From Romanomermis culicivorax (Eukaryota; Nematoda; Enoplea; Mermithida; Mermithidae), in contig CAWUHX010000077.1 in NCBI GenBank assembly GCA_963922205.1, positions 620,001-684,000 of the forward strand: a stretch of DNA of 64,000 nt. Direction: 5' to 3'. The notes below the pieces were generated by a model. It ran no database searches, was not told where the DNA came from, and saw nothing but the letters and a program-made list of their open reading frames with translations. Below, piece by piece: positions 22,390 to 56,860 of this stretch; within the stretch, counting starts at the first letter, position 1, and every line of letters starts with the position of its first letter. The position numbers were made by a program, and so were the translations under genes.

Positions 22390-22396
22390 ATTTTCA

Positions 22397-40210: not shown

Positions 40211-42107
40211 TTGAATTCCAGTTGTTCACTAATTATGGCAGACTTACAGGATATTCCCAAATGGTTGATCCAACAAAATTATGAATTTTTAATTTCAGAT
40301 TGGCGTACTATAAAATATTGCCAATTCTCTTTAATGTCCAATCAATATCTTGCTCAGTCTTTACACCTGTACACACAATTTTCCGAGATGCAAACAAGAT
40401 TACTGTGGCGTTTGAATTTTGCAGTCTTACCCTATCCAGGAAATCTACCAGTGGCATTCTTTACACTTTCTGAATTTTTTATCTGATTTTATGCTAATCT
40501 TTTGTTTTGCCACAATCAGAGCTTACATTTACTGCAAACATTCGTATTGCCAACTGATTAGTCATTTGTCCTGAAAAGCAGCTCTATTTATACCCAAGAA
40601 TGTCATAACATGTTAGGGCATGACACATCACACCTTACGTGCTGCCAAGGAATATAAATAGGAGCAGTTTTGTCTGGAAAATTGGTAGTTACTTTTTCTG
40701 GTTCAAGTTAGTCTTCAACGAAAATGGAGTCTGTCAAGAAAGTCATTGATTCCAGAACTTGGGTCAACAATAAATACCTTATTGGCGCCTTGTGGAAAAA
40801 GCTAATTGAGCTGAAAATGGATACTCTAGCACAATTCTGGGTGACAACCATGAGAGATAGAAATGGTCAACTTGTGATGGCCCAAATCAATCAAGAAACC
40901 CTACAAATTTTGGTCATAAGTCGATTATGGGAAACTAAGCATAGTATCATAAACTTTATTTTGGACTATTATGGTTCATTATCAATGATCGATCATCAAA
41001 ATTTTGGAACCCCTGAATTTTGGTGGCAACATTTTTGGTTATGAGGATGAAGGTCAATGGTGCAGTGGTCAAGCTTTGGATGAATATTAAAATGTTGGTG
41101 AAATAGTCCATCAGCATATGCCATCAGCATACATTGTCCGATTTTGACATATCAATGAACTCAATGGTGAACAATTGAGAAAAAATCTGAACCATTTGTT
41201 GAATAATATATTGGTTGATCATGATAACTGTGATCATATTGGTGTGGAAATTAACTATCTTGGCCTGGACAAGCAGATATTGATTCCACTTACTGAGCGG
41301 GAATATGTCAATTCAAATCATATTTTAATTATTGCTGATCATGTCCAACAATCAAGCAAAGAATTACTTTTGATGAAGACATGAATTTTAAAGTTGTTAT
41401 TGTCAATCATGTCGAAGGAGGTGGGAGAAATTGCCACAAGGTGGGGCAAGCACAACGGTTAATTGGAAAGCATGGTTCCAAAAGCATTGTGGCAATGGTG
41501 GGTGCTTCATTCAAGTTAAACCTCCGTGATTCTCACTAAAATCTTGAACATGTCTAAAATTTTTCATATAAACAATGAAGAAAATCAGTGTTTAGCTTGA
41601 GCAATGGTTACTGCCAGAGAAATTGCTGATAACCATCCTCATTTGAAGACGATGAAGCAAAGTGATAAGAATCACAGGACATTGGTACACGAATTGGCAA
41701 AAACATATGACCAAAGTTAGATTGGATGATTTCAATTGTTCATGTGGAATGGATGAAGTCAAAAGAATCCAAGAATTTTCGGCACCCAATTACTAGATCA
41801 ACATATTTTTGAAAAACCATTATAATGCCATAATTTATGAAGGAGAAAAAGCTCGAAAGATTACTAACCTTTACTATTATGTCAAACATTTTGATGTCAT
41901 AACAAAAATCCTGCCTTTTGTGCATGGATCCTATTTTTGTGAAATGTGTAATATCAGCTACAGACAAGGAAGAGTATGGATGCAATCAAGATAATTGTCC
42001 TGGCAGTCATGCAGAACAAAAATGCCTATTCTAAAACTGAATGTAATCATTGCTATCAGTAAGAACAAATGAATAACTTACTTCATACTGTAATTTTACA
42101 TTTCTAG
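40211..42107 (+). pseudogene. Old Polinton-type DNA polymerase B relic, 5' part
   Basis: The plus strand carries a decayed gene in successive frames: about 40724-41044, 41160-41384, then broken pieces to 42058. Recognisable blocks of the N-terminal half of Polinton/adintovirus-type polymerase are NSNHILIIADHVQQSSKELL, an INNEENQCLARAM block (41568-41610, split by a stop), YNAIIYEGEKARKITNLYYY (41818-41880), and HFDVITK followed by YFCEMCNISY and further Cys/His pairs that should bind zinc. At least five stops or shifts interrupt it. The last 49 bases (42059-42107) look like an intron, GTAAGA...TTTCTAG. The 14.3-kb Polinton is inserted at this acceptor, and reading resumes after 56415. Confidence 0.65.
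42059..42107 (+). other. Probable 49-bp intron of the polymerase relic
   Basis: It starts GTAAGA and ends TTTACATTTCTAG. The frame before the donor joins in phase to the sequence after the second copy of the acceptor beyond the Polinton (56419 onward). The Polinton TSD CTAGGC includes the acceptor AG. Confidence 0.55.
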
Positions 42108-42109
42108 GC

Positions 42110-42230
42110 AGTAGTATAGAAGGGGGGGGCTTAGGGGTAAAAAGCTCCCCGGCCCATGCAAAAGATAGGCGTTGGACTTGGAAAAAAATCACAACCTCCC
42201 CGACACACAAAACATAGCCGACCTTCCGCC
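42110..42230. repeat. Left TIR of 14.3-kb Polinton
   Basis: It pairs with 56300-56414 through AGTAGTATAGA, a run of G, AAAAGATAGGCGTTGGACTT (compare AACATAGGCGTTTGACTT) and CCCCGACACACAAAACATAG, with indels between blocks. The region up to about 42740 is non-coding, with GACGTCA words and GC-rich runs (42480-42530). Confidence 0.75.
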
Positions 42231-42749
42231 GACTTCTACGACGTCATTCTTCCGCTGCAAAAAAGCATGACGTCACACTTGACTAGAAAGAAAAAAGTTG
42301 CTGAAACTTGGCCCACTCACATCTCCGTCAAAACTTGAGATAAAGTGATATATATGGTACTTTTCGGAATCAGCTCAATGAGATCTATCGATTGGTACCA
42401 AACATGACGCATTTAGGACAACAGCCTAAATTTGGAGCGGGACTCTACTGTTTGTTCTCTTAGTTGCCACACACCGCTGCTGCCCGCCCGCCGCCGCCAC
42501 CCCCCCCCCCGCCTGTTGGGGGAGGGAAGATCGCCTAGCTAATAAAGCTGAAGCTGCGGCTTCAAGATTTATATGGCTAGCCTAAATGGAATAAACAATC
42601 GATATGAGCAATAAATCATGTGATATATCAACAGAAATTGTGTACTCATTCGCACTGATCACAGGATCAGTCCTAGCGCCAGCCGCGGGGAGGCTAGTAG
42701 ACATGTGGCGCCAGTACTTTCATAGAAAGTACCCATAATAAATGTTGTT

Positions 42750-42929
42750 TTACTTTTTTCTAGAATAGTTGTTATCCCAAGTCCATTCTTTCTTCATCAG
42801 CCTTTTCATTCTGTTAATTGGTGAATGATCAGCACCCAGTTCTCTGTATCTACCTCCCTGAACATATTTACACACATCATAATGCACAGAATGCATAGGA
42901 ATTTTCCCACATATGTTGCAAGGCTCCAT
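42750..42929 (-). CDS. 59-residue Cys/His protein
   Basis: A short frame starts MEPCNICGKIPMHSVHYDVC and ends in a basic tail (MKRLMKKEW, then NYSRKK). The C-x2-C...H...C spacing suggests a small zinc-binding module. The ATG at 42929 is 32 bases downstream of a TATAAATATA box (42961-42972), the spacing seen for other genes of the element. It is the last minus-strand gene before the left TIR, next to the TBP-like gene. I do not recognise the family. An alternative is a nuclear or virion-associated nucleic-acid-binding peptide. Confidence 0.5.
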   Translation of the reverse strand: MEPCNICGKIPMHSVHYDVCKYVQGGRYRELGADHSPINRMKRLMKKEWTWDNNYSRKK

Positions 42930-42960
42930 TGCAGAGAATGAATGTTTCAGCTTTCTATAT

Positions 42961-42972
42961 GATATATTTATA
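42961..42972 (-). promoter_or_regulatory. TATA box of 59-residue gene
   Basis: GATATATTTATA on the plus strand, read TATAAATATATC on the minus strand, about 32 bases before the ATG. Confidence 0.5.
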
Positions 42973-43015
42973 CCAGTGGGTAGTACTGTAATTCAATCAT
43001 ACTTGTACTTACTCA

Positions 43016-43534
43016 TCAACTTTGAAAACTGACAAGTAACTCTTTGAAGTTCTTCTGCAGTTCATCATTGGTCTTGGCACCCCTGATAATAATTTTACCT
43101 TTGTGAAAAATCAATGCACATAAGCCCTGCTTGTTAATTGTATATTTCAGTGCAGGAAATAATTCGGGAGAATAATCACACTGACCCCTATGAGTGTTAT
43201 AGAATTCCTCAACATTGATACAGTGATCTAGGGCGTATGACCCAACAACATTGCACATTCTAAATTTCCTGGGTCTTGGTCGATAGCCGAGTTTGAGCAG
43301 TATTTCTGCAGCATAATCTATACTTTTCACAGCCTGCTGAGTTGCCTTAATGCCCACACATACGAGCTTGCCGTTTTCATACAATAGTAGACAACATTTT
43401 GGATCATTAAGATGCCAAATCAGTGACCTGAATTTTCCCATTGTCAGGTTAGAGCCATTCAATTTTTTAGCAAGTGAGTCTAAATTGAGTCCACAGCCAA
43501 GTTCAGCTGTGACAGTAATGTTTTGTACTTGCAT
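43016..43534 (-). CDS. TATA-binding protein homologue encoded by a Polinton
   Basis: This 172-residue protein is essentially one TBP core: two imperfect repeats that should form the DNA saddle. Repeat 1 (residues 1-84) has VQNITVTAELGCGLNLDSLA, GKLVCVGIK and AAEILLKLGY. Repeat 2 (90-172) has NVVGSYALDHCINVEEF, YSPELFPALKY, LIFHKGKIIIRGAK and a final helix. The four DNA-intercalating aromatic positions of TBP map to F35, Y52, F126 and F143, with spacings 17, 91 and 17 identical to those in eukaryotic TBP; only the second is changed from Phe to Tyr. I take the first ATG (43534); six upstream codons are open but lack ATG. The frame is intact. It probably directs transcription of the element's own TATA-box genes. 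Distant host TBP-related factors are the alternative relatives. Confidence 0.88.
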   Translation of the reverse strand: MQVQNITVTAELGCGLNLDSLAKKLNGSNLTMGKFRSLIWHLNDPKCCLLLYENGKLVCVGIKATQQAVKSIDYAAEILLKLGYRPRPRKFRMCNVVGSYALDHCINVEEFYNTHRGQCDYSPELFPALKYTINKQGLCALIFHKGKIIIRGAKTNDELQKNFKELLVSFQS

Positions 43535-43548
43535 TTTCAGAATAAACT

Positions 43549-44319
43549 TCACTTTCTAAAGTGTAACTTCACAATTGTTTTACCAGTGACAAATTTTATA
43601 GGTTTGTCTTGATATGTTCTAATTGAAATTTCGATAGAATCGATATCTTTTACCAGTGCAGGCAAGTAGTGAGGAGCTATATATATCTTATCTATAATGT
43701 CACCAAAAGCTCCCTCTATATTAACAATACGGAGGAGGGGGGCTAAAATATCACCAGCAATCTGTTGTTCAATGATGTTACAATAAACATACATAGTTTC
43801 GAGACCAGCCTTCATATCAGCAGGGTGTGCAGCAGCAATTTTCAATTTTTCAGATGATGTTGTTTCTAGTTGTGATTCCTCAAAGCCCAACAGGTAGAGT
43901 AAAGGATCACTTAATTTTATGCTCTTGATTCTAGTCAAGTTTACTTTCAGGACAACTGCTCTGGCTAATCTCCTATATGAAAATTTGATAAACTCATTAT
44001 ATGGAACTTTTTCCTGTTCACTCAACAACCTGATGGATTGTTGAATAGCTTCAATTAAACCTATTATAGATTCATACCTTGTAGAAGGTACTTTTAGTAA
44101 TTGCCTAGTATTGGTCTGGAGATCATAAAATTTTATTACACTATCACTAGGTGTTATATTGAACCAGGTATTTGGGTAGATGAATTCACAAAGTGCACAT
44201 TCCCATTCACCTTGCAAAATCAATCTATGAGGCAACCTGATACTAAAATTTGAAGCCGAGTTACTCGGATCACTCTGAGCATTGCTCGGTAATGTTACAT
44301 AAAACTGTGAAAAATCCAT
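43549..44319 (-). CDS. Polinton minor capsid (penton-type) protein
   Basis: This 256-residue protein matches the Polinton minor capsid family, predicted to be a single jelly-roll penton at capsid vertices. The N-terminus reads FSQFYVTLPSNA, followed by NFSIRLPHRLILQGEWECAL and CEFIYPNTWFNI. The C-terminal part has GDILAPLLRIV, PHYLPALV and a terminal KLHFRK, all in the usual order. The first ATG is at 44319, since the codons before it lack ATG. The gene begins 5 bases after the protease stop. A TATTAAAGTT box lies 30 bases upstream within the protease gene. The frame is intact. Confidence 0.85.
   Translation of the reverse strand: MDFSQFYVTLPSNAQSDPSNSASNFSIRLPHRLILQGEWECALCEFIYPNTWFNITPSDSVIKFYDLQTNTRQLLKVPSTRYESIIGLIEAIQQSIRLLSEQEKVPYNEFIKFSYRRLARAVVLKVNLTRIKSIKLSDPLLYLLGFEESQLETTSSEKLKIAAAHPADMKAGLETMYVYCNIIEQQIAGDILAPLLRIVNIEGAFGDIIDKIYIAPHYLPALVKDIDSIEISIRTYQDKPIKFVTGKTIVKLHFRK
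43591..43600 (-). promoter_or_regulatory. TATA-like box before the TBP-like gene
   Basis: TATAAAATTT on the minus strand, inside the 3' end of the penton-type gene and 56 bases before the ATG. Confidence 0.4.
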
Positions 44320-44324
44320 TTTTT

Positions 44325-44762
44325 TCAATATTTCATTAGGGTGGAAACTAACTTTAATATTCTGTTGAGCTGGTCGAATAAAAATGCATCATCATATATG
44401 GGAGTATTTGTTCTAAAGAGGCTGTTGATGAAGCCAGTGACAAATTCATCAGCATCGCCTTGTTCCAAACTAGCAGCAACTCTAACAATGCACTTGTAAG
44501 AAGTAGATATAGTCTTGATGTAATTCCTAAGCTGTTGAGGTGGTTCCAGGCCATAACTGTCAAAATAACAACATGCATGTTTTTTATCAACAAACAGAGC
44601 TACCCAGTGTGAACGAGGTTCATCCTGCTTGTCCAGATTTACAACCAATGCTGCGGGTACAGTGTCAAGAGGTGGTAAACAGTCTATAGGAAATACCCCA
44701 TTGAAGATTTGTCTGAGAGCTTGATCTCTATTAATCAAGATGTAGATTTCAGAGGTATTCAT
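44325..44762 (-). CDS. Adenovirus-type cysteine protease, probably inactive
   Basis: The 145-residue protein has the fold signature of the Polinton/adenovirus maturation protease (family C5-like). It has LPPLDTVPAALVVNLD, the catalytic His in SHWVALFVD (H52) and the acidic partner in CYFDSYG (D68). In this family a Gln and then a Cys-Gly follow about 35-45 residues later. Here the region reads RVAASLEQGDADEFVTGFIN (residues 94-113), with no Cys anywhere after C91. The nucleophile and the oxyanion-hole Gln therefore appear to be missing. Its ATG overlaps the capsid stop (ATGA), suggesting coupled translation. It would normally cut capsid precursors. C91 acting as nucleophile is a less likely alternative. 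Confidence 0.7.
   Translation of the reverse strand: MNTSEIYILINRDQALRQIFNGVFPIDCLPPLDTVPAALVVNLDKQDEPRSHWVALFVDKKHACCYFDSYGLEPPQQLRNYIKTISTSYKCIVRVAASLEQGDADEFVTGFINSLFRTNTPIYDDAFLFDQLNRILKLVSTLMKY
44350..44359 (-). promoter_or_regulatory. TATA-like box before penton gene
   Basis: TATTAAAGTT on the minus strand, one change from TATAAAAGTT, 30 bases before the ATG at 44319. Confidence 0.45.
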
Positions 44763-46060
44763 GCAGTATAGTCATTAAAGACGTGTCTATTTTTATCAAT
44801 CATAATCAAATTGTCAAATTCTGCATAAACAATAACTTCTATACCTGCGTCAGGTATCGTATCAGCAAATGTCAATTCTATACTTGTGGAGCCATCTCTA
44901 ATCAAGTCCCAATGTCCACTATCATCTCCATCAGGTGTAAAATCGAAGTCAAAGTAGTACTGTCCATTTTTAAAATTAAGTCTGCTAATGCCATTCCCTT
45001 TGTTATCTTTAGCCATGTCTAGAGTTTCAAAGAGCTGATCATATGCTCGAATATATTTGTTGTTGGCAAAATCAAGTCTTAGTGGAGTGGCTGGAAAAGC
45101 TTGACCACCAGAGACAACCTTGACTTCACTTATACTGTAACATTTAAAATTAAATGGAGATTTTTTTATTTCTCCAGGATATGCATCTGCATCGACACAT
45201 GCTATAATCATCCTAGGTGGCAACTGACCAGTGAATAGAGTATTCAGAGGTGTAGATTGCGTTGTACTAGGAATATGAAGATTCACCATTTGGATTCGTC
45301 TAATTGGGTACTTGACTGGTGTCTTTAACATTGCTTTCTCCAGAGCCAATCCAACACTGTAGAGAACTTCAACTTTCCTGATGAAGATTTTCATCTGGGA
45401 AACTTCCAATTTTGCATTTTCTGCATCACCAGCTGGACACTGTAATACAAATGGATTACTATTGCGAATCAATTTGAGTTTAAGCTCAGAATTGCTGAGT
45501 AAATATCGGTCTTGCATTAGAAGATCAATATGAAGAGGAGCTGTTATTTCAACTGTTTGACCATTTTCAAACTGCTTTACCCTGTCTTTAAAACCCTGGA
45601 AATCAGCAGTATCTATTTTAGGACCAGCTTCCATAGTATACAAAGAAGACTGTAAGTGACTGTTTTTAGCAACAAAACCAAAATTTAAATCAGTTTCAAA
45701 GAATGCTCTGTAGGCATACTTATCCCCACTATCATGAATAAGATGACCATTCAGGAAGAGCTTCACTTGTCGGAAAAATGCTTTACCAATCAGATTGATA
45801 GGTGCAATTACTGGTGCAGCTCCACCAGCAGGAACAGTGTAAGTAATTTTCAAGGTCATGTACAGATAATTTTTGCTAAGCTGAATCATGTGAGGATCTG
45901 GAGGTATACAAAATTCGTATGGACCATCATTTGTGATAGGATTTACGGGGTTAACTTCATCCCAGTAGCCTTGTTTAATTACTACTTGTGTGGGAGGAAC
46001 AGTGAAAAAGTCCAATTCAGACTTTGTACTAATACTAAAAATTGTATCAATTAGAGCCAT
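44759..46060 (-). CDS. Polinton major capsid protein (double jelly-roll)
   Basis: The 433-residue protein fits the Polinton major capsid family that forms pseudo-hexagonal trimers. Motifs in order are the N-terminal SELDFFTVPPTQVVIKQGYW and IPPDPHMIQLSKNYLYMTLK. These are followed by GKAFFRQVKLFLNGHLIHDS, DKYAYRAFFETDLNFG and a mid-protein DLLMQDRYLLSN. The C-terminal half contains YIRAYDQLFET and ends IVYAEFDNLIMID. I use the ATG at 46060: the upstream codons overlap the TATA box (46101-46110), which would place the transcript start near 46075. The frame is open. It heads a close-packed capsid, protease, penton and TBP series. Confidence 0.92.
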   Translation of the reverse strand: MALIDTIFSISTKSELDFFTVPPTQVVIKQGYWDEVNPVNPITNDGPYEFCIPPDPHMIQLSKNYLYMTLKITYTVPAGGAAPVIAPINLIGKAFFRQVKLFLNGHLIHDSGDKYAYRAFFETDLNFGFVAKNSHLQSSLYTMEAGPKIDTADFQGFKDRVKQFENGQTVEITAPLHIDLLMQDRYLLSNSELKLKLIRNSNPFVLQCPAGDAENAKLEVSQMKIFIRKVEVLYSVGLALEKAMLKTPVKYPIRRIQMVNLHIPSTTQSTPLNTLFTGQLPPRMIIACVDADAYPGEIKKSPFNFKCYSISEVKVVSGGQAFPATPLRLDFANNKYIRAYDQLFETLDMAKDNKGNGISRLNFKNGQYYFDFDFTPDGDDSGHWDLIRDGSTSIELTFADTIPDAGIEVIVYAEFDNLIMIDKNRHVFNDYTA

Positions 46061-46100
46061 GTTTCCTTCTCTTTTTCTTTGAGAATATATCATTTTTCTC

Positions 46101-46110
46101 AACTTTTATA
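46101..46110 (-). promoter_or_regulatory. TATAAAAGTT box of major capsid gene
   Basis: Exact TATAAAAGTTG on the minus strand, 40 bases before the ATG at 46060. It lies inside the 3' coding part of the pX-like gene. Confidence 0.75.
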
Positions 46111-46220
46111 CCTTTTGGTCTAGTCCCCAAGCCTCTTCCAGTCTGCAAGGCCTCTCCCGCACTGTGGGCCAACTTGGAGAGTGCTGCTCGGCCATGTTCT
46201 TCTAGAGACTCTTTAATAGA

Positions 46221-46469
46221 TCAACCCTCGGCTAAATCACCAGCAATATGCTCACCTGTAGATAGCACTTGCTTACCAATGTGGCCAGCAGCTGACCTAA
46301 TAACAGGAATGGCTATTCTGAATAACGATCTAAAGAAGCTTCCTAGACCTCCTCCGCGCTGATAAGGAGTGCCTTTGAAGCCTTTGAAATCATAACCAGT
46401 TTGTTCAGCTTGTTCAGTGTAGTACTGAAGCCAAGTAGCATAATCTTCCGGATTAAAGTATTGTCTCAT
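46221..46469 (-). pseudogene. pX-like small virion protein, cut by a TGA
   Basis: The 82-residue frame has an aromatic N-terminus (MRQYFNPEDYATWLQYYTEQ) and then a Gly/Arg and hydrophobic core (RGGGLGSFFRSLFRIAIPVI, then GKQVLSTGEHIAGDLAEG). That core is characteristic of a small core or membrane-lytic protein found beside the capsid gene in Polintons. The family usually runs on, and here the same frame continues past the TGA at 46221-46223 with similar Ala/Gly-rich helix (HGRAALSKLAHSAGEALQTG) to a stop at about 46047. The TGA is therefore most likely a recent nonsense mutation. A TATAAAAGTT box is 31 bases upstream. Confidence 0.6.
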
Positions 46470-46500
46470 ATTTATAGGTTTAGAGAATGCTGTAAGTTAC

Positions 46501-46510
46501 AACTTTTATA
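46501..46510 (-). promoter_or_regulatory. TATAAAAGTT box of pX-like gene
   Basis: Exact TATAAAAGTTGT on the minus strand, 31 bases before the ATG at 46469, overlapping the stop of the preceding gene. Confidence 0.75.
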
Positions 46511-47233
46511 CTTTTCCAAATCCTAACCATCTAGACCTTGGTGTAATGCTTTTGGGTACCTTAATCTTTTTACCATCTACTGGGCTACTGGGGGAAGCAA
46601 ATGTTTCATCGCTTTCACTTCCAACATTTAACCTGGACTTATTTACAAAAAGATCTCGAGGCACATTCTCCTTTAAGAGGTTCTTTACAAACAATTCTGA
46701 CCCTATTGCTTGCTGACGCCTTGGACCAACTCTTGCTACATCAGAAATCAAATCAACAATGTTAGTTCCACTTATTTTGTTGCCTTTCAGAATCATTTCT
46801 CCTTTATCCGACCACTCCATGTGTGGATTATCTTTAGCATAATCATATAACATTTTGGCTTGACTATGCCATTTTTTGGTACAATTTTCATAGTTTTTTC
46901 ATGCAGCACATCTTTTCTCGGGGTAACATCAACAGTGCTTTCAGCAGTGTCTGGCTTTTTTTGCCTTGGTGTTATTTCTTCCAGATTAGGAATGGGGTGT
47001 TCTGCAACAGGTTCATTAACAGTCAACTCATAAGGTCTGGTTTGATCCTGCCTAGCCTGCCTATATCTGTGCAACACTTGATTGTATAAGATTATCTTTC
47101 TGTCAGAGGGCAATGACTTATTAGTTAAAATGTCATTCATTTCTTTATCCATAGCAGTCATTACATTAGCTGCTATATCCTCCCTATGACCAATGTCATG
47201 CGGTACAAGAATCATTTTATTTGTATGCATCAT
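46506..47233 (-). pseudogene. Polinton hypothetical protein, frameshifted
   Basis: Two frames make up one gene. The N-terminal frame (46793-47233) has KIILYNQVLHRYRQARQDQT. The C-terminal frame (46506-46853) has MEWSDKGEMILKGNKISGTN, IVDLISDVARV and NVPRDLFVNKSRLN. The second block is a recurrent motif in Polinton-type elements (W-x-x-x-GE...G-x-x-I-x-G(S/T)NI-x-DLI). The shift lies around 46855-46875. Its role is unknown; a virion or DNA-binding protein is possible. The start ATG at 47233 overlaps the previous stop as ATGA, and no TATA box was found just upstream. This gene therefore seems to depend on read-through of the upstream transcript. Confidence 0.6.
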
Positions 47234-47574
47234 CTCTTTATAATTGCATCAGCTAGTAATTGTCCAGCTATTCCTAAAATTGGTGCCAACAATACAGGCA
47301 AAAATCCACCTTTTTGTTCTAGAATGTCTTGTCTTTTGCTGAGACTTGTTTTCTCATCTGCTAATACTCGTAAATGTCCCTTGTGGGAACTTAATTTATT
47401 CAAGATATTTTTGTCAACTTTTATATTGCCTTCCAGGAAGTTGAGTATACATTCACACAAACAAAGTATCAGTTCACGATCAGTGGTGCTAATAATAGCT
47501 TTACGTTGCTTGGGTTTAGCCTTAGCTAGTACCCCGATGTAATCAATATTATGTCTAAGACGATCACAAGGCAT
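47230..47574 (-). CDS. Small Polinton protein with GGFLP hydrophobic tail
   Basis: The 114-residue protein has a charged helical N-terminal half (AKPKQRKAI, CLCECILNFLEGNIK). Then LSKRQDILEQKGGFLPVLLA leads into a hydrophobic C-terminal stretch (PILGIAGQLLADAII), probably membrane-interacting. This (L-x-x-KR...GGFLP) pattern is common in small proteins next to Polinton capsid genes; the role is unknown. I choose the ATG at 47574 because the TATA-like box TATAGAAGTT (47601-47610) lies 26 bases before it and would exclude the upstream codons. The stop overlaps the next ATG (ATGA). Confidence 0.65.
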   Translation of the reverse strand: MPCDRLRHNIDYIGVLAKAKPKQRKAIISTTDRELILCLCECILNFLEGNIKVDKNILNKLSSHKGHLRVLADEKTSLSKRQDILEQKGGFLPVLLAPILGIAGQLLADAIIKR

Positions 47575-47600
47575 TTTGACTAAACAACTGAAGAATAGAC

Positions 47601-47610
47601 AACTTCTATA
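47601..47610 (-). promoter_or_regulatory. TATAGAAGTT box of GGFLP gene
   Basis: One base from TATAAAAGTT, followed by G, 26 bases before the ATG. It overlaps the stop codon of the ATPase gene. Confidence 0.6.
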
Positions 47611-48229
47611 CTTTTGGCACATATATCATGGAAAATTTTGAGAAAATATCAGCTCTGAGTCTAAGTTTATCAGGTGTTGTTTGAAAAAGATCAATAATTA
47701 TATAACTGTATGGTCTAAATGTGGCATCTTCAAAAGACTCGAGAAAGTACTTTACCTTATCAGGAAACAACTGTCTTGCCAAAGTCTTTACTTGGAGTCT
47801 ATCTACAGGATTTTTCATCAAAACAAGGTACTCTGCATTTATTCTAGATGTTCTTAGACCCTCGAACAAAACATTTTGAACAATGTGTATCACAGACACA
47901 TTCATGTGATGACATCCATGAGTAAAAAGAATGTCGAGATGCTTATTTTTTGCCATTTCCTGCATCAGATCATCTAGTACAACAAGCTGGGGTACAGGAC
48001 TGAGCTCTCTAATCAAGTTCATGACAGGTAATCCCTGATAGAAGTTGACTCTGCCAGACAAGTCATTGTAGACTGGCTGCTTCTCACTAAAGAACCAGTG
48101 AATATGTTCAGGAACCGGTTCCATCAAGTACTTAAAATTTAGTACTAAATTCTTTACAAAGGTTGTTTTACCCGCTTTTGCAGGGCCAGCAACAATACAT
48201 GTAAAGGGGTGATTATATTTTATAGCCAT
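47606..48229 (-). CDS. Genome-packaging ATPase (FtsK/HerA type)
   Basis: The 207-residue ATPase should pump Polinton DNA into capsids. Walker A is GPAKAGKTT (residues 15-23) and Walker B is LVVLDDL (about residue 85). The family sequence SVIHIVQNVLFEGLRTSRIN, with a polar Q-N sensor, follows, then AEYLVLMKNPVDRLQVKTLA. The C-terminus has PYSYIIIDLFQTTPDKLRLR. The length is normal for Polinton ATPases. I use the ATG at 48229 (MAIKYNHPF) because the TATA box at 48255-48264 lies only 25 bases upstream and overlaps the earlier ATG. The frame is intact. Confidence 0.92.
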   Translation of the reverse strand: MAIKYNHPFTCIVAGPAKAGKTTFVKNLVLNFKYLMEPVPEHIHWFFSEKQPVYNDLSGRVNFYQGLPVMNLIRELSPVPQLVVLDDLMQEMAKNKHLDILFTHGCHHMNVSVIHIVQNVLFEGLRTSRINAEYLVLMKNPVDRLQVKTLARQLFPDKVKYFLESFEDATFRPYSYIIIDLFQTTPDKLRLRADIFSKFSMIYVPKV

Positions 48230-48254
48230 GTTTTTTTTTCTTCTATAGATTCTC

Positions 48255-48264
48255 AACTTTTATA
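48255..48264 (-). promoter_or_regulatory. TATAAAAGTT box of ATPase gene
   Basis: Exact TATAAAAGTTGAG on the minus strand, 25 bases before the ATG. Confidence 0.75.
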
Positions 48265-48377
48265 ATATGCAACATGCTGAAAATACCAGCAATTGTGCTT
48301 CAATTTGTTTTTCTCTTAATTTTTTTCTTGTTTTTTATTTTTCATCACAATATTTAATCAAAATTATCACAATATAA

Positions 48378-48707
48378 TTAGGGTATATCTATACCTTCAT
48401 CATTGTATTTTTGCATGGCTTCTGGACTCAGATTCATCCAGATTTCAAACAAAAGGGGTCCAGCACTGCAGATTTTTATCAAACCCTCTAGTGCCTTGGC
48501 AAAATGCCAAAACCCTGTCAATTTTCTCTTACCCATAAGATGATCCAGTTCATTGGCCACTTTAGCCAAAATCTTCCATTCATGCTTGTAGCCATCATTT
48601 ATTTGATCCCAAAAATATGAGGCAAATCTGGCCACATCTTTTTGAGTATAAAGTCTTTTGAGAAAAGTGCCCATACTCAGTGCAATATTTAAAAAAATAC
48701 CTTCCAT
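48378..48707 (-). CDS. Hypothetical 109-residue Polinton protein
   Basis: The frame opens MEGIFLNIALSMGTFLKRLY and continues with mixed helical sequence (DVARFASYFWDQINDGYKHE, GFWHFAKALEGLIKICSAGP). I recognise no domain. It has no signal peptide in the strict sense, though residues 1-15 are hydrophobic. A TATATAAGTT box lies 63 bases upstream. It lies between the ATPase and the CxxC protein, and the unbroken frame with its own box supports a real gene. The role is unknown. Confidence 0.5.
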   Translation of the reverse strand: MEGIFLNIALSMGTFLKRLYTQKDVARFASYFWDQINDGYKHEWKILAKVANELDHLMGKRKLTGFWHFAKALEGLIKICSAGPLLFEIWMNLSPEAMQKYNDEGIDIP

Positions 48708-48770
48708 TTTGAAAAAGTGACTAAACTGTAGAAGGAAAAGTTTGAAGACTGAAGACTAAGGAGAATTCAC

Positions 48771-48780
48771 AACTTATATA
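48771..48780 (-). promoter_or_regulatory. TATATAAGTT box of 109-residue gene
   Basis: TATATAAGTTGTG on the minus strand, one change from TATAAAAGTTG, 63 bases before the ATG. Confidence 0.55.
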
Positions 48781-48819
48781 CATAAAAAATGTTACAGAAT
48801 ACTTGCAAATCACATATCA

Positions 48820-49095
48820 CTAGTTTACTGTAGGCTTGAAGATGAGTGCCTGTCTATCAGCCAGCTGCTTCTTTAGTACAGCCGTGCCAGCTTCCTGCAA
48901 TGCCTTATTGTATTCTAGACATTTTGGGCACATTTCAATAGTAAAGAATGTTTTACCCTGCGACAACTGGAAACATTCCCGTTCAGAGCTGTTCTTTTGA
49001 CAAAAATAACACAGTTCAATCATTAAGGGATACATGGCTCTTGGCAAGTTTCGAGCGCAGAGTTCAATAGGAGCTTTAACTTTTTTCGATTCCAT
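48820..49095 (-). CDS. Small zinc-ribbon-like protein
   Basis: The 91-residue frame contains two CxxC pairs, CYFCQK (about residues 29-34) and CPKCLE (about 56-61), 27 residues apart, plus a nearby CARN. This is typical of a zinc ribbon. The C-terminal third is helical and Ala/Leu/Lys-rich. No closer family can be named. The ATG at 49095 follows a TATAAGCAACTT box (49127-49138) by 35 bases. A transcription or DNA-binding role is possible given the ribbon, but this is inference. Confidence 0.55.
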   Translation of the reverse strand: MESKKVKAPIELCARNLPRAMYPLMIELCYFCQKNSSERECFQLSQGKTFFTIEMCPKCLEYNKALQEAGTAVLKKQLADRQALIFKPTVN

Positions 49096-49126
49096 TCTAG
49101 TTAATCAAATGATTAAAATAATTTTG

Positions 49127-49138
49127 AAGTTGCTTATA
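49127..49138 (-). promoter_or_regulatory. TATA-like box of zinc-ribbon gene
   Basis: Minus strand TATAAGCAACTT, 35 bases before the ATG. It is a variant of the common box with a displaced AACTT. Confidence 0.45.
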
Positions 49139-49206
49139 TGCTGAAATATCAGGCACATGTAAAAATTTTTAGACCTGCAAATCATTGTTTAATTTTCATA
49201 CTGTAG

Positions 49207-50271
49207 CTATAGTTTTATCAAGTCTGTCACCCAACTATTGAATTTATCTGGGTGACCCTTCCATTTAACAAAGTATTCAGTTTTCCCAGCCTTTTTTCTC
49301 TTTGGTATAATCTTTTCTATAATGCAGACGTCTGTAATCTCATCAACTTTCTTTAATTCTGGCTCATAAAAGATACCCTGTATGACTTCTCCCAGCTGAT
49401 CTTCTACCATATATACAGGAGGATATCTAGCTTTTTGCTCACGAATCACAAAAACTTCATCACTCCAATTGGGAGTGTAACTCTTCTCAAGAGTCATTTT
49501 GACCTTGCTTATGCGTACCTTGTCACCAGGGACCAGTTTAAATTGTACACTGGACTTACATTTCCTGAAAAGCTTTTCAACAATTTCAGCTTTATTCTCA
49601 TCAGTAACATCAATGGGAGCAACACCTATGGTCCTATGCCTAGTCGAGTTGTAAGAGCTTAGCAGGAGGGGTAGAATGTTTAGGTACTTGTATGTATTAT
49701 TTTGAGTAAAATGACGCCACATTCTTTCCTTTAAAGTTCTATTGAACCGCTCAACAATGCTAGCCTTAGTTTCACTAGCAGTTATGAAAAAACTAATGCC
49801 AAGTTTCTTTAATAAGGCCTGGAAGGCTTTGTTTGTGAACTCTGTACCAGCATCAGTCTGTATTTTTTGTGGCTTTCTGCCAGATTTCAAAATTGTTTGA
49901 AAGGCATGCAAAATAGATGATGTATTTTTATTTTTCAAGGGTACAGACCATGCAAATTTCGACAGGACATCTATACAATTTAAAAGGAATTTTTATCCAT
50001 CATTATGCTTGGCGAGTGAACTGAGGTCTGCAAGATCCATTTGCCACTGCTCATCAATATCAGTAACTAGAACATTATTCCTGGGTAAATGGCGCCTAGC
50101 ATACTTGTGTACAGTATATGTTGGCTGTTTCTGTAACCATTCCTTAACAGAATGCAGAGTGACTCTTGGATCACTAGATTTTGCCTGTCATAACAGGTTC
50201 TGAACACTACAATACCCTGTACTTGGGTTGAAGTATATGCTTCCAAAGAGCTTGTCCATTTTTTCAAGCAT
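49207..50271 (-). pseudogene. Polinton retroviral-type integrase, two nonsense codons
   Basis: The DDE integrase that inserts Polintons is read in one frame of 354 codons from ATG 50271. The first catalytic Asp is in QMDLADLSS (about residue 79), the second in KIQTDAGTEF (140) and the Glu in SIVERFNRTLKE (174). A chromodomain closes the protein (IIPKRKKAGKTEYFVKWKGH, then FNSWVTDLI) and would bind histone tails. The frame is cut by TGA at 50188-50190 and TAA at 49993-49995, with no frameshift, so inactivation looks recent. The uninterrupted C-terminal part starts at 49938. A TATAAATAAAAGTT box lies just upstream. Confidence 0.88.
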
Positions 50272-50281
50272 GCTGCTGTCA

Positions 50282-50295
50282 AACTTTTATTTATA
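50282..50295 (-). promoter_or_regulatory. TATA box of integrase gene
   Basis: TATAAATAAAAGTT on the minus strand. Its TATA core lies about 20 bases before the ATG at 50271. Confidence 0.55.
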
Positions 50296-50506
50296 CATCT
50301 GCAAGATTGAATCTGACACTTTTTCTACTAGTTTTAGGTTTTTTGGTGAACAGGTTCTCCAAATATCTCCTTAACAATTTCAATAGAGTCAGTATTGTTA
50401 GTATAGCCAATAGAGCCACACAATGCCATATCTCAGTAAAAACTGTTTTCCCATTATGCCTTTCCAGGCAAGCTAGAAAATGTCCAATAGTGTGGTTAGC
50501 ATCCAT
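50291..50506 (-). CDS. Small single-pass membrane protein
   Basis: The 71-residue frame has a central hydrophobic helix (about residues 27-46, HCVALLAILTILTLLKLL) followed by a basic tail (RRYLENLFTKKPKTSRKSVR). This suits a type II or tail-in-cytosol membrane peptide. An exact TATAAAAGTT box is 28 bases upstream. It is the first minus-strand gene, divergent from the polymerase. Its function is unknown; small membrane proteins are common in Polinton-like viruses. Confidence 0.55.
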   Translation of the reverse strand: MDANHTIGHFLACLERHNGKTVFTEIWHCVALLAILTILTLLKLLRRYLENLFTKKPKTSRKSVRFNLADV

Positions 50507-50534
50507 GTTTTTTCTTCATTTTAGAGAGCCAGCC

Positions 50535-50544
50535 AACTTTTATA
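50535..50544 (-). promoter_or_regulatory. TATAAAAGTT box of membrane-peptide gene
   Basis: Exact TATAAAAGTTGGC on the minus strand, 28 bases before the ATG. Confidence 0.75.
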
Positions 50545-51040: not shown

Positions 51041-51050
51041 TATAAAAGCA
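51041..51050 (+). promoter_or_regulatory. TATA box of DNA polymerase gene
   Basis: TATAAAAGCA on the plus strand, 63 bases before the ATG at 51114. It places the transcript start near 51070, downstream of which the first ATG is 51114. Confidence 0.65.
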
Positions 51051-51113
51051 AAAAAATTTGAGGAAAGCTCATTTGTGATTTTTATCAAGTTAAAGAAAGG
51101 TCGGATTGTTAAA

Positions 51114-52757
51114 ATGGATGTTAAAAATTTTTTGTGCAACAAATGTGGAAGAAGCTTTGGCGAAAAACAATATTTGAATGGACATATGGCTGCATCACAC
51201 GAAGGGAGACGATTTAAATGCCCTCAATGTGGCTCAATGTTTACACAAATGAAAGGATTGAAGAATCATTACCAGAAACAACATCAAGAATTTAATTGCC
51301 TGTATTGTGGAACCAGCTTTTGCAACCAACAAGCATTATTTTCCCCTATGCATAATGGTAGCTGCTTGATGGTCAAACCAGAAGAGGGAAATTCAATGGA
51401 ATTGATGGATGAAAAACCAACTACAAGTGGACTTATGATTCCCGAAGATGAAGAAACACCAATGGAGCTGAGTGAATACCCAGAAGAAATGCAGAGAGAA
51501 ATCAATAATTATTGGCGACTTATTCGAACCAATCAGTACACTTCCAACCTACTGGAGCATACTTACAATTATAGATGGGCGGCTACCAATGGAGACCTTA
51601 AAAGGATGATTTACAACATTTACCAGTCAGAAAAGGAATGTTTTCGTATTGATGCTGCAATTGGATGCTTGTTGAAAAATTGGGAAACAGGTGAGTACAA
51701 ATATTGGTATGCATGCCAGAATAACTATACACTGTTAAACCATCCTGTTTTGATCAAAAATGGGGAGGATGTGCAGCAATTAACTGGGACTATGAAAAAA
51801 ATTGATTTTGAAGAAAAATTTACACGCCCTGATACAAAATGGTCTCTTGCCCTCATCACAAATGTTGAATTCTATGTCATGCCACAAAAAAGCTTTGTGG
51901 CTGGTTGCAAAGACTCCCATTTACCTGACCCACTCGTCTACCAGACCCACAATATTATTGGTATGACCCAAGATGGTCAGAGAAACAGATTTAAAGATAA
52001 TCTTTGTCTTTTTCGTTGCTTAGCCCAAGGAATTTTTGGCAGTTTTGAAGATAAAAGGCGTGTTTTTCAGCTCTTTGTAAAGTATTGCCAAAAGAAGAAT
52101 ATCCCATCAGTTGTAGATTACTTTTCCGGGGTTCCATACACAGATTTGGAAATGATTGAGAAATTATTCCTCATTGATATACAGGTTTATCACTATGATC
52201 TTGCTAAAAATATGGCCATTTGCTGGAAAAATGTTATTCCACAATATGAAAAACTTATAAATTTGGATGTTCCATTTGATGACAGTAGGCGTGCTCACTA
52301 TAGTTATATTGTCAATATAGATCAATATGCAAAACGGTATTCTTGTATTTTTTGCAGTCATCTCTTTAGAGAACGTGAAAAACTTAATGAGCATACAAAA
52401 GACCATTGCCACGAGGGTAAAACAATCCATAAATTTCCTGGTGGTGTATATACAGTGGAAAAATCCGTTTTTGAACAGCTAGATGAAATAGAAATTTTTG
52501 TAGATAGAACATATCGTTTGTGTCCCTTTTATGCAGTTTTTGACTTTGAAGCCCTTCTTGTAAAAACTTCTGAGCAAACATCTGATAAATTAACTTTTGT
52601 TGCTCAGCATCAACCTGTGTCATGTGTTATAGCAACTAATATTTCTGGATTTGCTCCAATTTGTTTTGTTGAAGATGATCCAGATGTTTTGGTCAAAAAA
52701 ATGGTGGGTCATCTAGAACTGATTAGCTTCAGACAAAATGAAATTTTGACTAATTAG
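51114..52757 (+). CDS. Polinton DNA polymerase B, N-terminal part
   Basis: This is the first half of the protein-primed replicative polymerase. It begins with three Cys/His fingers (residues about 7-80: CNKCGRSF, CPQCGSMF, CLYCGTSF). An acidic linker and the block MQREINNYWRLIRTNQYTSN follow, then HTYNYRWAATNGDLKRM. RNRFKDNLCLFRCLAQGIFG is at about residues 293-312. A further Cys/His motif (CIFCSHLF) and the exonuclease I motif FDFEALLV (about residue 476) come next. The frame stops at 52757. The next 100 bases hold coding-like sequence in another frame (CKAYIEELYDQKTMAKSNF), so a shift and probably a deletion separate it from the catalytic half. The ATG at 51114 is chosen from the TATA position. 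Confidence 0.85.
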   Translation: MDVKNFLCNKCGRSFGEKQYLNGHMAASHEGRRFKCPQCGSMFTQMKGLKNHYQKQHQEFNCLYCGTSFCNQQALFSPMHNGSCLMVKPEEGNSMELMDEKPTTSGLMIPEDEETPMELSEYPEEMQREINNYWRLIRTNQYTSNLLEHTYNYRWAATNGDLKRMIYNIYQSEKECFRIDAAIGCLLKNWETGEYKYWYACQNNYTLLNHPVLIKNGEDVQQLTGTMKKIDFEEKFTRPDTKWSLALITNVEFYVMPQKSFVAGCKDSHLPDPLVYQTHNIIGMTQDGQRNRFKDNLCLFRCLAQGIFGSFEDKRRVFQLFVKYCQKKNIPSVVDYFSGVPYTDLEMIEKLFLIDIQVYHYDLAKNMAICWKNVIPQYEKLINLDVPFDDSRRAHYSYIVNIDQYAKRYSCIFCSHLFREREKLNEHTKDHCHEGKTIHKFPGGVYTVEKSVFEQLDEIEIFVDRTYRLCPFYAVFDFEALLVKTSEQTSDKLTFVAQHQPVSCVIATNISGFAPICFVEDDPDVLVKKMVGHLELISFRQNEILTN

Positions 52758-52860
52758 TATAACTAGTATTCCAACATTTAGAAGGTATGATAGAAAGTTG
52801 TAAGGCCTACATTGAAGAACTGTATGATCAAAAAACCATGGCCAAAAGCAATTTTGGGAA

Positions 52861-55104
52861 ATGGGTCCTACCAAAAGTCTCAGATTCTTGGATATCTCCC
52901 TGTATTTAGCCCCTGGTTTTAGTTTAGACACCTTTATGAAGGCTTATGGGGCATCCCTTAGCAAAGCCAAATTCCCCTATGAGTATTTGGATGCCTTTGA
53001 AAAGCTTTATGAGAAATCACTGCCACCCCCACAAGCATTTTACAGTTCTTTGAGAAAAGAATCCATTTCTGATGAGGACTATCAACTATGCCAAAAGTAC
53101 TGGAGAGAGAATGGAATGGAAAACTTGAAAGATTTTTTAATTTTTCACAATCTTCGGGATGTTGTGCCTTTTCTAGAAGCTGTTACAATGATGATGAAGC
53201 TCTATTGGGAAAAATTTGGAATCGATATTTTCAGAGAAGCAATGTCTCTGCCTGGGGTTACTGAGAGATACCTGTTCAAAAGCATTAAAGACACACACTT
53301 TGCCCTCTTTTCTGAAAATTCAAAAGATCTTCATTATTCCTTAAAATCCGGTATGAGGGGTGGTCTGGCGATGGTGATGACCCGACTGGCAATCAAGGAT
53401 AAGACATTCATTCCGAATAATCCCAAAAAACTAGTCAAATCAATAATTGGGCTTGATTTTAATGCCCTCTACCTCTGGGCGCAGTCTATGCCTACACCCA
53501 CAGGATTTTTTGATCAGTGGGTCTGTCAGGGTGAAAAATTTCAAAAAGTAAACAGTTCTAAAAAAGTTTCTGTTGAATGGTTAGAAAAGATGAGTTGGGA
53601 ATGTGGCCATTTCATTCAACACCTTGGAAATGGCAAAGAAAAGTGCATAGGCCTGAGGCATTTACCTGATGAGGGTTACTGCCAGGACACGAACACCATA
53701 TATGAATTTTATGGGTGTTACTGGCATTGTCACAACTGCAACTTCAGCAAGCCAAATAAACAAAAGGATAGCAATGATGAGCATGCTAAAAGAGAGGAAA
53801 AGGAGGCATATATAAAATCACTAGGCTACAACTTGGCAACCATCTGGGAGTGCCAATGGGACAACCAGCACCAAGCTTACATTAATCAAAGAGCTAAATT
53901 GTGTCCAAATTTTTTTAGAAAATTTCAATTTCAAAAATACGTTAATAAAAATCTTATGGAAAAATCAATTACAGATGGCTCTGTTTTTGGGTTTGCAAAA
54001 GTCGATATTTCTACACCAGACCATCTAAAAGAAAAATATGCCGATTTTCCTCCAATAATAAAGCATGCAGAAGTGGGACGAAATGATGCTGGTGACTTCA
54101 TGAAGCAGTATGCTGAAAATACCAACCAGCTAAGACAACCAAGAAAAAACCTTATCAGTAGGTACTTTGGCAAGGAGATCATGGTTTCTACACCCATGAT
54201 CCAATTTTTGGTAAAACATGATCTGATACTTGATAAGGTCCATGAAGTTATTCAATTTGACGAGGCAACACCTTTTGAAGCATTCCATGACAAAGTTACC
54301 AAGCACAGACGGGAAGGAGATACCAATCCCGAGCTAGCAATGATTGCTGATACGTTTAAATTACTAGGCAACACAGGATATGGAAAAACATTGACCAATA
54401 AGGAGAGTCATATGGATGTCTCCTACCTAGATTATGAAAAGGCTGCTGAGCTAGGCCTCAGCACTTACGTCAAGAAAATAAAATGCATAACTGAAAAGTG
54501 TTATGAAGTCCACATGCAGAAAAAAGAAATTGTTTTAGACTTGCCCATTGTAGTGGGCCTTTCAGTCTATAATTGGGCAAAGGTCAGAATGTTGGAGTTC
54601 TTCTATGATGTGCTCCAAAAGTATTTTGACCCTGCTGATTATCAGTGTATGGAAACAGACACTGACAGCATCTACCTGGCAATATCAGCTGAACACTTTT
54701 TGGATATTGTAAAGCCAGAACTAAAAAGTGAATTTTTGACTCAAGTCTACCCGAATTGGTTTGCGACAAACCCTGAACAGAAACGAACCCCTGGATTACT
54801 GAAAGAAGAACGGCGTAGAACAGCTATGTGTTGTTTTTCCCCCAAAACATACATTGGGGTCGGAAAAGGTGAGAAAAAGACAAGTTGTAAAGGTCTCATG
54901 AAAAAAATAAATAATCTCACCTTTGAAAAATATCTTTCTGTTCTGGAGACCAGGGAACCCTGGAATGGTGAAAATATAGGGTTCAGGTTGCAGGGAGACA
55001 GCAAAATATGGAGGTACATGCAACAGAAGCAGGGTCTCCCATTCCTTTATGTAAAAAGGAAGGTCTTAGATGATGGCATAACAACTGTGCCATTGGGCTT
55101 ATGA
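52861..55104 (+). CDS. Polinton DNA polymerase B, catalytic part
   Basis: The second half starts where the family reads LRFLDISLYLAPGFSLDTFM and includes the palm. Motif A is GLDFNALYLWAQ (about residue 197), motif B is KLLGNTGYGKTL (about 499) and motif C is ETDTDSIYLA (about 598), followed by the SPKTYIGVGK lysine-tyrosine region. An endonuclease-like insert, IYEFYGCYWHCHNC...GYNLATIWECQWD, lies at about residues 278-335. The catalytic motifs are intact. The exonuclease II region expected between this part and 51114-52757 is not found, so the gene is probably disrupted by a deletion of about 100 codons plus frameshifts. Its ATG at 52861 is internal and not the true start. Confidence 0.88.
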   Translation: MGPTKSLRFLDISLYLAPGFSLDTFMKAYGASLSKAKFPYEYLDAFEKLYEKSLPPPQAFYSSLRKESISDEDYQLCQKYWRENGMENLKDFLIFHNLRDVVPFLEAVTMMMKLYWEKFGIDIFREAMSLPGVTERYLFKSIKDTHFALFSENSKDLHYSLKSGMRGGLAMVMTRLAIKDKTFIPNNPKKLVKSIIGLDFNALYLWAQSMPTPTGFFDQWVCQGEKFQKVNSSKKVSVEWLEKMSWECGHFIQHLGNGKEKCIGLRHLPDEGYCQDTNTIYEFYGCYWHCHNCNFSKPNKQKDSNDEHAKREEKEAYIKSLGYNLATIWECQWDNQHQAYINQRAKLCPNFFRKFQFQKYVNKNLMEKSITDGSVFGFAKVDISTPDHLKEKYADFPPIIKHAEVGRNDAGDFMKQYAENTNQLRQPRKNLISRYFGKEIMVSTPMIQFLVKHDLILDKVHEVIQFDEATPFEAFHDKVTKHRREGDTNPELAMIADTFKLLGNTGYGKTLTNKESHMDVSYLDYEKAAELGLSTYVKKIKCITEKCYEVHMQKKEIVLDLPIVVGLSVYNWAKVRMLEFFYDVLQKYFDPADYQCMETDTDSIYLAISAEHFLDIVKPELKSEFLTQVYPNWFATNPEQKRTPGLLKEERRRTAMCCFSPKTYIGVGKGEKKTSCKGLMKKINNLTFEKYLSVLETREPWNGENIGFRLQGDSKIWRYMQQKQGLPFLYVKRKVLDDGITTVPLGL

Positions 55105-55170
55105 ATATTTTTATTCTTGTTTTTTTATTATTCTCATATCTTTTCTTATTCTCATATTTTGCTATATCAG

Positions 55171-55198
55171 CTCCTACAATGTAGGAGTCATTTTTTTT
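55171..55198 (+). terminator. Hairpin plus T-run after polymerase gene
   Basis: CTCCTACAATGTAGGAG is a perfect 8-bp stem with one loop base, followed after three bases by eight T. It begins 67 bases beyond the polymerase stop. The form recalls an intrinsic terminator. It could instead be a 3'-processing signal or chance. Confidence 0.4.
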
Positions 55199-56299: not shown

Positions 56300-56414
56300 T
56301 GCTTGCCTATACTTTGTACATGGGGACGATGCTGCTTTTTTTTCTAAGTCAAACGCCTATGTTTTGTGTGTGTCGGGGACAAACTTTACGCTCGAGCCCC
56401 CCCTCTATACTACT
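56300..56414. repeat. Right TIR of 14.3-kb Polinton
   Basis: The complement of the left TIR blocks, ending TCTATACTACT. The block order differs slightly from the left because of an internal deletion or duplication. Confidence 0.75.
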
Positions 56415-56860
56415 CTAGGCGACTGATGAGCCAAGCTTGCTTTGACAATCATAAAATAGACAAATATGATATGGGTAAAGGTAAAACAAAGAGAATTGAT
56501 CCAATCTGTTACAAAATTAAATGATGCAAAACATGCAACCAATTGGTTGATAGTAGACATCAAAAGCAGCATAAATGCTTCTCGATGCATTGCAAAACAT
56601 CTGACTGATGGTTGAACAAAGAAGATCATGCTTTTTATATGAAGGTACTTAATATTCTTACTTTAGATCCTCGTGTAAATTAGTTGTCTCAATTTTCCAG
56701 AGTATTGATAATGACTTGAAACAAAAACAAAGACCATTTTTTATTTTCATTAATTTTGAGACTAGACAAAATGTTATTTTGGATCAAAATGAAAATAACA
56801 ATAATGAAACACGGAAAATTATAAAATGACACTTCTGCATGATGCAATAGGTCTGAGGAA
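56415..56860 (+). pseudogene. Old Polinton-type DNA polymerase B relic, 3' continuation
   Basis: Directly after the Polinton's right TSD the plus strand resumes Cys/His-rich coding, with CFDNH, then CKTCNQLVDSRHQKQHKCFS and HCKTSD, typical of the zinc-binding region. About 250 bases further on the phrase FINFETRQ matches the exonuclease I motif (F-D-F-E-T), with Asp replaced by Asn. One TGA and several shifts interrupt it. Beyond about 56860 the homology fades. Confidence 0.55.

Follow-up and report, generated by a model that had tools for sequence, protein, structure and literature searches.

A Polinton in the genome of the mermithid nematode Romanomermis culicivorax carries a gene for a TATA-binding protein (TBP), and sequence comparisons indicate that TBP is a real, inherited gene of this Polinton group, with more than 100 copies in the genome. 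The element lies in a stretch of 64,000 nucleotides (assembly GCA_963922205.1, contig CAWUHX010000077.1, positions 620,001 to 684,000 of the forward strand), hereafter called the window, to which all coordinates refer.

A Polinton with a TBP gene

The element spans positions 42110-56414 of the window (14,305 bp), an extent assigned because the two inverted ends are both bordered by CTAGGC (Table 1). As in Polintons/Mavericks and adintoviruses, inverted ends and a 6-bp duplication are combined with genes for DNA polymerase B (polB), an integrase with a chromodomain, an ATPase, a putative protease, a putative major capsid protein (MCP) and a penton protein; the terminal repeats with the duplication, polB with the integrase, and the packaging ATPase with the penton identify the element as a Polinton. 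The left arm is read on the minus strand in the order integrase, one small open reading frame (ORF), ATPase, three small ORFs, MCP, protease, penton and, as the last gene, TBP, while in the right arm polB occupies two separate plus-strand frames. The integrase region gave a PHROGs transposase match (6e-8), and its frame is interrupted by stops upstream of the part listed in Table 1. The C-terminal part of the protease is unlike that of other copies, and a profile search of the PDB with the MCP alignment returned no match. The penton protein had no Pfam match, and its identity rests on the predicted fold: the model (pLDDT 79.6) matched adomavirus LO5, a MELD-virus penton, the adenovirus penton, and virophage and giant-virus minor capsid proteins, with significant E-values and modest TM-scores of about 0.3-0.5. 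It can be aligned across Polinton families A to C and a metagenomic relative, L040, all described below. With polB split, the integrase broken and a T-to-R change at a DNA-contacting position of TBP, the window copy is a decaying one.

Table 1. Features of the Polinton in the window (aa, amino acids; expectation values follow the names of matched families)
Feature	Position	Strand	Evidence or remark
Target-site duplication, left copy, CTAGGC	42104..42109		identical 6 bp at 56415-56420, immediately outside inverted ends
Left terminal inverted repeat	42110..42188		inverted match 77.5% to 56337-56414; homology with other copies stops near here
TBP gene, 172 aa	43016..43534	-	PF00352 2.7e-37, two repeats; predicted TBP saddle
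Penton/minor capsid protein gene, directly upstream of TBP	43549..44319	-	predicted fold similar to viral penton and minor capsid proteins
Adenain/Ulp1-type cysteine protease	44325..44762	-	Peptidase_C48 0.0021 and C5 0.12, both below cut-off; homologues in other copies
Double jelly-roll (DJR) MCP	44759..46060	-	DJR-like 0.0016, below cut-off; 73% identical relative has PF21738
TATA box TATAAAAG(TTG)	46103..46110	-	50 nt before MCP start
TATA box TATAAAAG(TTG)	46503..46510	-	
Conserved Polinton ORF orf115	46506..46853	-	present in other copies and L040
Conserved Polinton ORF orf146	46793..47233	-	present in other copies
Conserved Polinton ORF orf130	47230..47622	-	present in other copies and L040
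TATA box TATAAAAG(TTG)	47418..47425	-	within orf130
Packaging ATPase, Pox_A32 type	47606..48229	-	PF04665 2.2e-6, above cut-off
TATA box TATAAAAG(TTG)	48257..48264	-	35 nt before ATPase start
Conserved Polinton ORF orf109	48378..48707	-	present in other copies
TATA box TATATAAG(TTG)	48773..48780	-	73 nt before orf109 start
Integrase, 3' part: rve core and chromodomain	49207..49938	-	PF00665 2.1e-6, below cut-off; PF00385 4e-8, above cut-off
TATA box TATAAAAG(TTG)	50537..50544	-	upstream of integrase region
TATA box TATAAAAG	51041..51048	+	73 nt before ATG at 51114 of polB-arm frame
polB arm, first piece, zinc fingers	51114..52757	+	PF13894 1.9e-8
DNA polymerase B (organellar and viral type), second piece, separate frame	52861..55104	+	PF03175 5.3e-8, above cut-off
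Right terminal inverted repeat	56337..56414		inverted match 77.5% to left repeat
Target-site duplication, right copy, CTAGGC	56415..56420		identical to 42104..42109

Other mobile sequences are present in the window. Just beyond the left end of the element, positions 40724-41994 (plus strand) hold a broken remnant of a second Polinton-type frame, which by eye is similar to the polB-side frame beside the family-D TBP in locus L033. An LTR-type element at 18965-24657 has 0.9-kb direct repeats that are 97% identical, gag, an aspartic protease and one frame resembling a Monjiviricetes fusion glycoprotein (1.4e-7), and a further LTR-type element at 59578-63574 has 0.76-kb direct repeats that are 98% identical and a 788-aa frame with a zinc knuckle and a weak gag match.

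The original prediction, made from the letters of the window, held that the TBP frame contains both TBP repeats, and this was borne out: PF00352 matched it in two stretches with 126.9 bits against a cut-off of 22.9, and the predicted fold is the TBP saddle. Judged by the model, the protein appears nearer to cellular TBP (TM 0.92) than to viral TBPs, the comparison with predicted viral structures giving TM up to 0.81 (24% identity in the top row). At the positions that we take to be the intercalating aromatics and minor-groove asparagines of TBP, both Asn equivalents are kept and the four predicted aromatics are all present (F, Y, F, F), but the tyrosine, Y52, turned out to be a feature of family A, other families having F. 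The gene had also been described as intact; it does read as a 172-aa two-repeat TBP, but it belongs to a decaying copy and has a private change at a DNA-contacting position, T313R, where the 15 other family-A copies compared have T.

We counted positions identical to human TBP in 13 Polinton-type proteins and 11 cellular eukaryotic rows, using what we presume to be the human interface positions for DNA, TFIIB, TFIIA and helix 2. Across the whole TBP core, 749 of 2117 positions were as in human in the Polinton-type proteins and 1290 of 1804 in the cellular rows. The intercalating aromatics were identical at 46/52 and 43/44 positions, respectively, the minor-groove set at 53/76 and 61/64, and the TFIIB stirrup set at 29/39 and 33/33; the corresponding counts were 7/52 and 35/44 for the TFIIA set and 11/64 and 47/55 for the helix-2 basic set. 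The net charge of helix 2 is +3 in human and host TBP and ranges from 0 to -3 in the 13 Polinton-type proteins, L040 retaining part of the basic set (QKSRL for RRKRK). Within the stirrup, E284 has been substituted in families A and B but persists in C, D and L040; E286 is kept in every Polinton-type row seen, and L287 is kept in all except P0002 and L040. From these alignments, the Polinton TBPs appear to have kept the DNA-contacting residues largely and the TFIIB stirrup mostly, and to have lost the TFIIA contacts and the basic helix-2 patch.

TBP in other Polinton copies and families

A search of the genome (359 Mb) at E ≤ 0.001 returned at least 151 TBP matches (150 scored among 271 candidates), and a count by eye found 44 full-length TBPs (≥160 residues) without an in-frame stop among the 150 listed rows. 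The penton protein had 153 matches, 150 of which entered the locus count. At 129 of the 145 merged penton loci, a same-strand TBP match lay no more than 2 kb downstream; the distance was 200 nt or less at 116 loci and exactly 17 nt at 77, and 16 loci had no listed TBP. Conversely, at least 122 of 144 merged TBP loci had a listed upstream penton match, a lower bound because, among the 22 remaining loci, the six that were fetched (L016, L018, L024-L026, L028) do carry penton sequence. We fetched 20 TBP loci, picked to cover the identity groups. Penton directly preceded TBP in 20 of 20, and the run from integrase to TBP was complete and in the window's order in 10 and partial in the other 10, where a contig end, loss or insertion may have cut it short. 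The gene occupies the same place in most of the copies in this genome and a different place in L040, which comes from another source; the original prediction had proposed this comparison to tell a Polinton gene from an isolated host capture, and none of its three refuting checks (scores of both repeats, predicted fold, other copies) went against it.

TBP identity is 60-92% among aligned copies of the window's own family, family A. The TBPs of family B (L024-L027, L034) show about 34-36% identity, and the genes seen there are in the same order as in family A. In a third type, family C (C487; L031, L038, L039), a relative of the penton protein (24% identity, E 7e-7) follows TBP, and at C487 the other strand has polB-type frames nearby. 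In a fourth, family D (C13; L033, L036), TBP is divergent from polB-type frames, with an MCP fragment (52%). The Polinton context comes from one locus for family C (C487) and from one for family D (C13), and in three small family-C-type pieces (L030, L032, L035) Polinton genes other than TBP were absent from the 1-2.6 kb fetched. TBP is present in two and probably four Polinton families.

A relative outside this genome, L040 (JAJRVU010000309.1), is an 11,589-bp metagenome contig assigned to the Planctomycetota bin Dive96_bin10.66, to all appearances by mis-binning; going by the bin name, we guess that its source is marine. It encodes homologues of the window ATPase, integrase, penton, MCP (36.7%), protease, orf115 and orf130, and its TBP (PF00352 1.9e-45, 34% identity) adjoins the ATPase rather than the penton. 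A single-sequence protein search for TBP gave no matches, and a search with a 12-sequence TBP alignment gave 385 (120 listed); of 27 sequences taken from these, metagenomic P0001, P0002 and P0101, which sit on short contigs, group with Polinton TBPs. Scans of viral contigs with TBP, the TBP alignments A1, A2 and A3, and the MCP alignment produced no confirmed relative, and a PHROGs search with TBP produced no match. As a separate observation, the window MCP has 587 relatives, up to 73% identical among those listed; most of the 120 listed are nameless and none has a eukaryote name, and the window's Polinton clade may therefore be common in environmental DNA.

TATA boxes and a proposed role for the Polinton TBP

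The consensus TATAWAWR was scored 20-85 nt before mapped gene starts in five representative elements of families A and B (window, L017, L020, L022 and L027), with the expectation obtained by first-order Markov resampling; in L027, the TBP and penton positions are approximate because the mapped starts are not ATG. TATA boxes preceded 19 of 42 gene starts, at distances of 30-85 nt, against 1.54 expected, and they were found before MCP (5/5), ATPase (5/5), orf109 (4/4), penton (4/5) and TBP (1/5) and in no case before protease, orf115, orf146 or orf130. The family-A TBP has no TATA box of its own in the copies examined, and the window penton lacks the box found before penton in the other four representatives. 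In the left arm of the window element (42110-50500), the coding strand carries 10 TATA sites and the opposite strand 2, compared with 45 and 42 on the two strands of the rest of the window. In the right arm (50501-56414), 3 sites are on the strand that encodes polB and 6 on its complement, and apart from the box at 51041 no enrichment is seen.

The exact 11-mer TATAAAAGTTG occurs five times in the window, each time within the element and on the minus (left-arm coding) strand. Among 16 other family-A loci (L009-L023, L028), 11 have three to five copies and 5 have none to two; the 11-mer is absent from the family B, C and D loci, and TATAAAAG is kept in family B. The family-D TBP has TATAAATA 46 nt upstream of its ATG, and the family-C TBP in L031 has no TATA site within 85 nt. 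In L040, a site at 20-85 nt was found before only one of the nine starts examined (orf112), the MCP site lying at 94 nt and the integrase site at 7 nt. At sequence level, the link between TBP and TATA boxes is thus strong in families A and B only. The idea in the original prediction that the protein serves the element's own promoters finds indirect backing in the boxes upstream of several genes in these two families, but the pattern is not evident in L040.

We consider it likely that the Polinton TBP acts as a dedicated factor for promoter recognition, which would bring host RNA polymerase II (Pol II) to the element's genes, because the DNA face is largely conserved, E286 and, in nearly all rows, L287 are kept, regulatory surfaces are lost, and in families A and B the coding strand bears TATA boxes. 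In an active element, or in a virus form encoded by the element, its own TBP would sit on the TATAAAAG boxes and bend DNA like an ordinary TBP, and the conserved second-repeat stirrup would recruit host TFIIB (or a TFIIB-like factor) and host Pol II. The T313R change in the window copy, at a DNA-contacting position, calls for caution about TATA binding and bending predicted for this particular protein. NC2, Mot1 and TAF1 are regulators that contact TBP. Since its TFIIA contacts and the basic patch of helix 2 have been substituted, the Polinton TBP probably acts outside host TFIID, free of TFIIA and of these three host regulators, and promoter recognition by the element would no longer be limited by host TBP. 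In family A, TBP closes the capsid block, commonly at a distance of 17 nt from penton, and may be made late; that it is packaged for a following round is purely speculative. A scan of 10 of the element's proteins, which did not extend to at least two small ORFs, turned up no RNA polymerase gene, and the element should therefore depend on the host polymerase.

The nearest functional parallel appears to be the herpesvirus vTBP, which is of a different build. According to the sections available of PMC7498053, ORF24 of KSHV, a vTBP of the beta- and gammaherpesvirus type, is a TBP-like protein that replaces TBP at viral late promoters, where a TATT motif is used, and recruits host Pol II; it has 752 residues and a separate Pol II-binding domain (PMC7498053). 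The Polinton protein, by contrast, is a bare 172-residue TBP core associated with TATAAAAG boxes. A literature search whose scope left out most subscription journals found nothing on how Polinton genes are transcribed by means of factors that the elements themselves encode.

The same TATA boxes could also be used by host TBP. In one rival reading, the Polinton protein is a competitor or decoy that damps host transcription, either by titrating host TFIIB and Pol II or by sitting on TATA promoters of the host, while host TBP reads the element's boxes. The retained DNA face and the lost TFIIA and helix-2 surfaces would suit DNA binding without normal assembly, and the absence of the TATA pattern in L040 indicates that TBP and boxes need not go together. 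We nevertheless think such a role unlikely, since E286 is retained in all and L287 in nearly all Polinton-type rows, and since a blocker would also occupy the coding-strand boxes of the element's own genes in families A and B. Less probable still is a non-transcriptional role at element DNA, for example at the inverted ends, with the saddle bending DNA during replication or packaging: the location of the gene beside capsid genes and a TATA-like site at 42972, in the interval from the left end to the TBP gene, fit it, but the TATA sites in families A and B cluster upstream of genes.

Selection, phylogeny and age of the gene

We calculated pairwise dN/dS for 18 chosen TBP pairs, of which two had infinite dS, one had zero dS and three between-subfamily pairs had finite dS near 2. 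In family A, dN/dS was 0.11-0.31 wherever computable. With unsaturated dS, the window copy gave 0.13 with L013, 0.18 with L011, 0.17 with L016 and 0.31 with L015, and other pairs gave 0.14 (L013-L015), 0.14 (L013-L016) and 0.28 (L021-L022). Values were 0.22 (L017-L021) and 0.21 (L017-L022) at dS 1.0-1.2, and 0.13 (L013-L017), 0.14 (L013-L022) and 0.11 (L019-L022) at dS near 2. These ratios point to purifying selection on TBP in family A. We do not extend the claim to family B because dN/dS there was 0.85 for L025-L027 and 1.01 for L025-L034, both at dS 0.08; L027-L034 gave 0.26 at dS 0.03.

Two trees were built without TBPL1 sequences: a first one of 35 rows and a second, careful one of 30 rows, which left out meta_P0102, PolA_L021, PolA_L016, TRFlike_P0014, Gb_09530 and meta_P0003. 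In the 30-row tree, 12 cellular eukaryotic TBPs and TBP-related factors (TRFs) lie on one side of a branch supported at 96/97, with every Polinton TBP outside; in the 35-row tree, the cellular group has 92/97 and is not starred. Families A and B form one group with P0001 (100/98), families C and D another with P0002 and P0101 (100/98), and the host TBP exons (C95, L029) group with human TBP (84/83), all in the 30-row tree. The trees neither establish nor reject a common origin for all Polinton-type TBPs (p 0.22). Insect TRF, a TBP paralogue with about 30-33% identity to the window TBP, was rejected as a partner of families A and B (p 0.0046). Forcing A and B together with animal TBP gave borderline p values of 0.053 (host and human), 0.057 (host alone) and 0.034 (L040 added), and forcing C and D together with animal TBP was not rejected (p 0.125).

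Recent capture of a host TBP or TBP-related gene that hitch-hikes without function would accommodate the many broken copies and the unrejected grouping of C and D with animal TBP, and long branches could have moved a fast captured gene outward in the tree, but it is very improbable given the low dN/dS in family A, the exclusion of Polinton TBPs from the cellular clade (they do not group inside animal TBPs), the rejected TRF and borderline animal groupings of A and B and, above all, the conservation of TBP across several families and L040, which largely contradicts it. The trees suggest that the TBP gene is old in these elements; we confine this claim to its age, not its source, because long branches could push fast rows outward.

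The same literature search turned up no account of TBP being encoded by Polintons, Mavericks or adintoviruses. The available portions of PMC4028283, PMC8097293, PMC10328495, PMC10120064 and PMC11071308 contain no TATA or TBP terms, and in those of PMC12220804 such terms stand solely in the reference list; in the accessible text of PMC7786948, TBP is mentioned in another connection. Virus-encoded TBP folds are known from nucleocytoplasmic large DNA viruses and mirusviruses: from the parts of these papers available, a TBP cluster is present in 59% of mirusvirus genomes (PMC10132985), a megavirus expresses TBP alongside its own RNA polymerase subunits (PMC11464507), and TBPs are mentioned for green-algal elements of putative mirusvirus origin (PMC10675990). 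The Polinton differs from the large DNA viruses in having no RNA polymerase gene among the 10 proteins scanned.

A wider scenario is possible, if rather doubtful. It posits a clade of Polinton viruses whose own TBP predates the spread of present eukaryotic TBPs or stems from a very old transfer, the protein of the main families being tuned to TATAAAAG-type core promoters and shielded from TFIIA, NC2, Mot1 and TAF1; such a minimal system of viral promoter recognition would borrow only host TFIIB and Pol II, and the gene might be a relic of a TBP in a viral ancestry shared with giant viruses and mirusviruses. Polintons are assigned a place close to the root of many eukaryotic DNA viruses.

With TBP as a regular Polinton gene and TATA boxes in the main families, promoter recognition becomes directly testable in these elements, and the gene is a marker for one Polinton clade. 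The protein would represent a naturally stripped-down TBP, its DNA face kept and several regulatory surfaces lost, and a group of small viruses is now added to the question of where viral TBPs came from.
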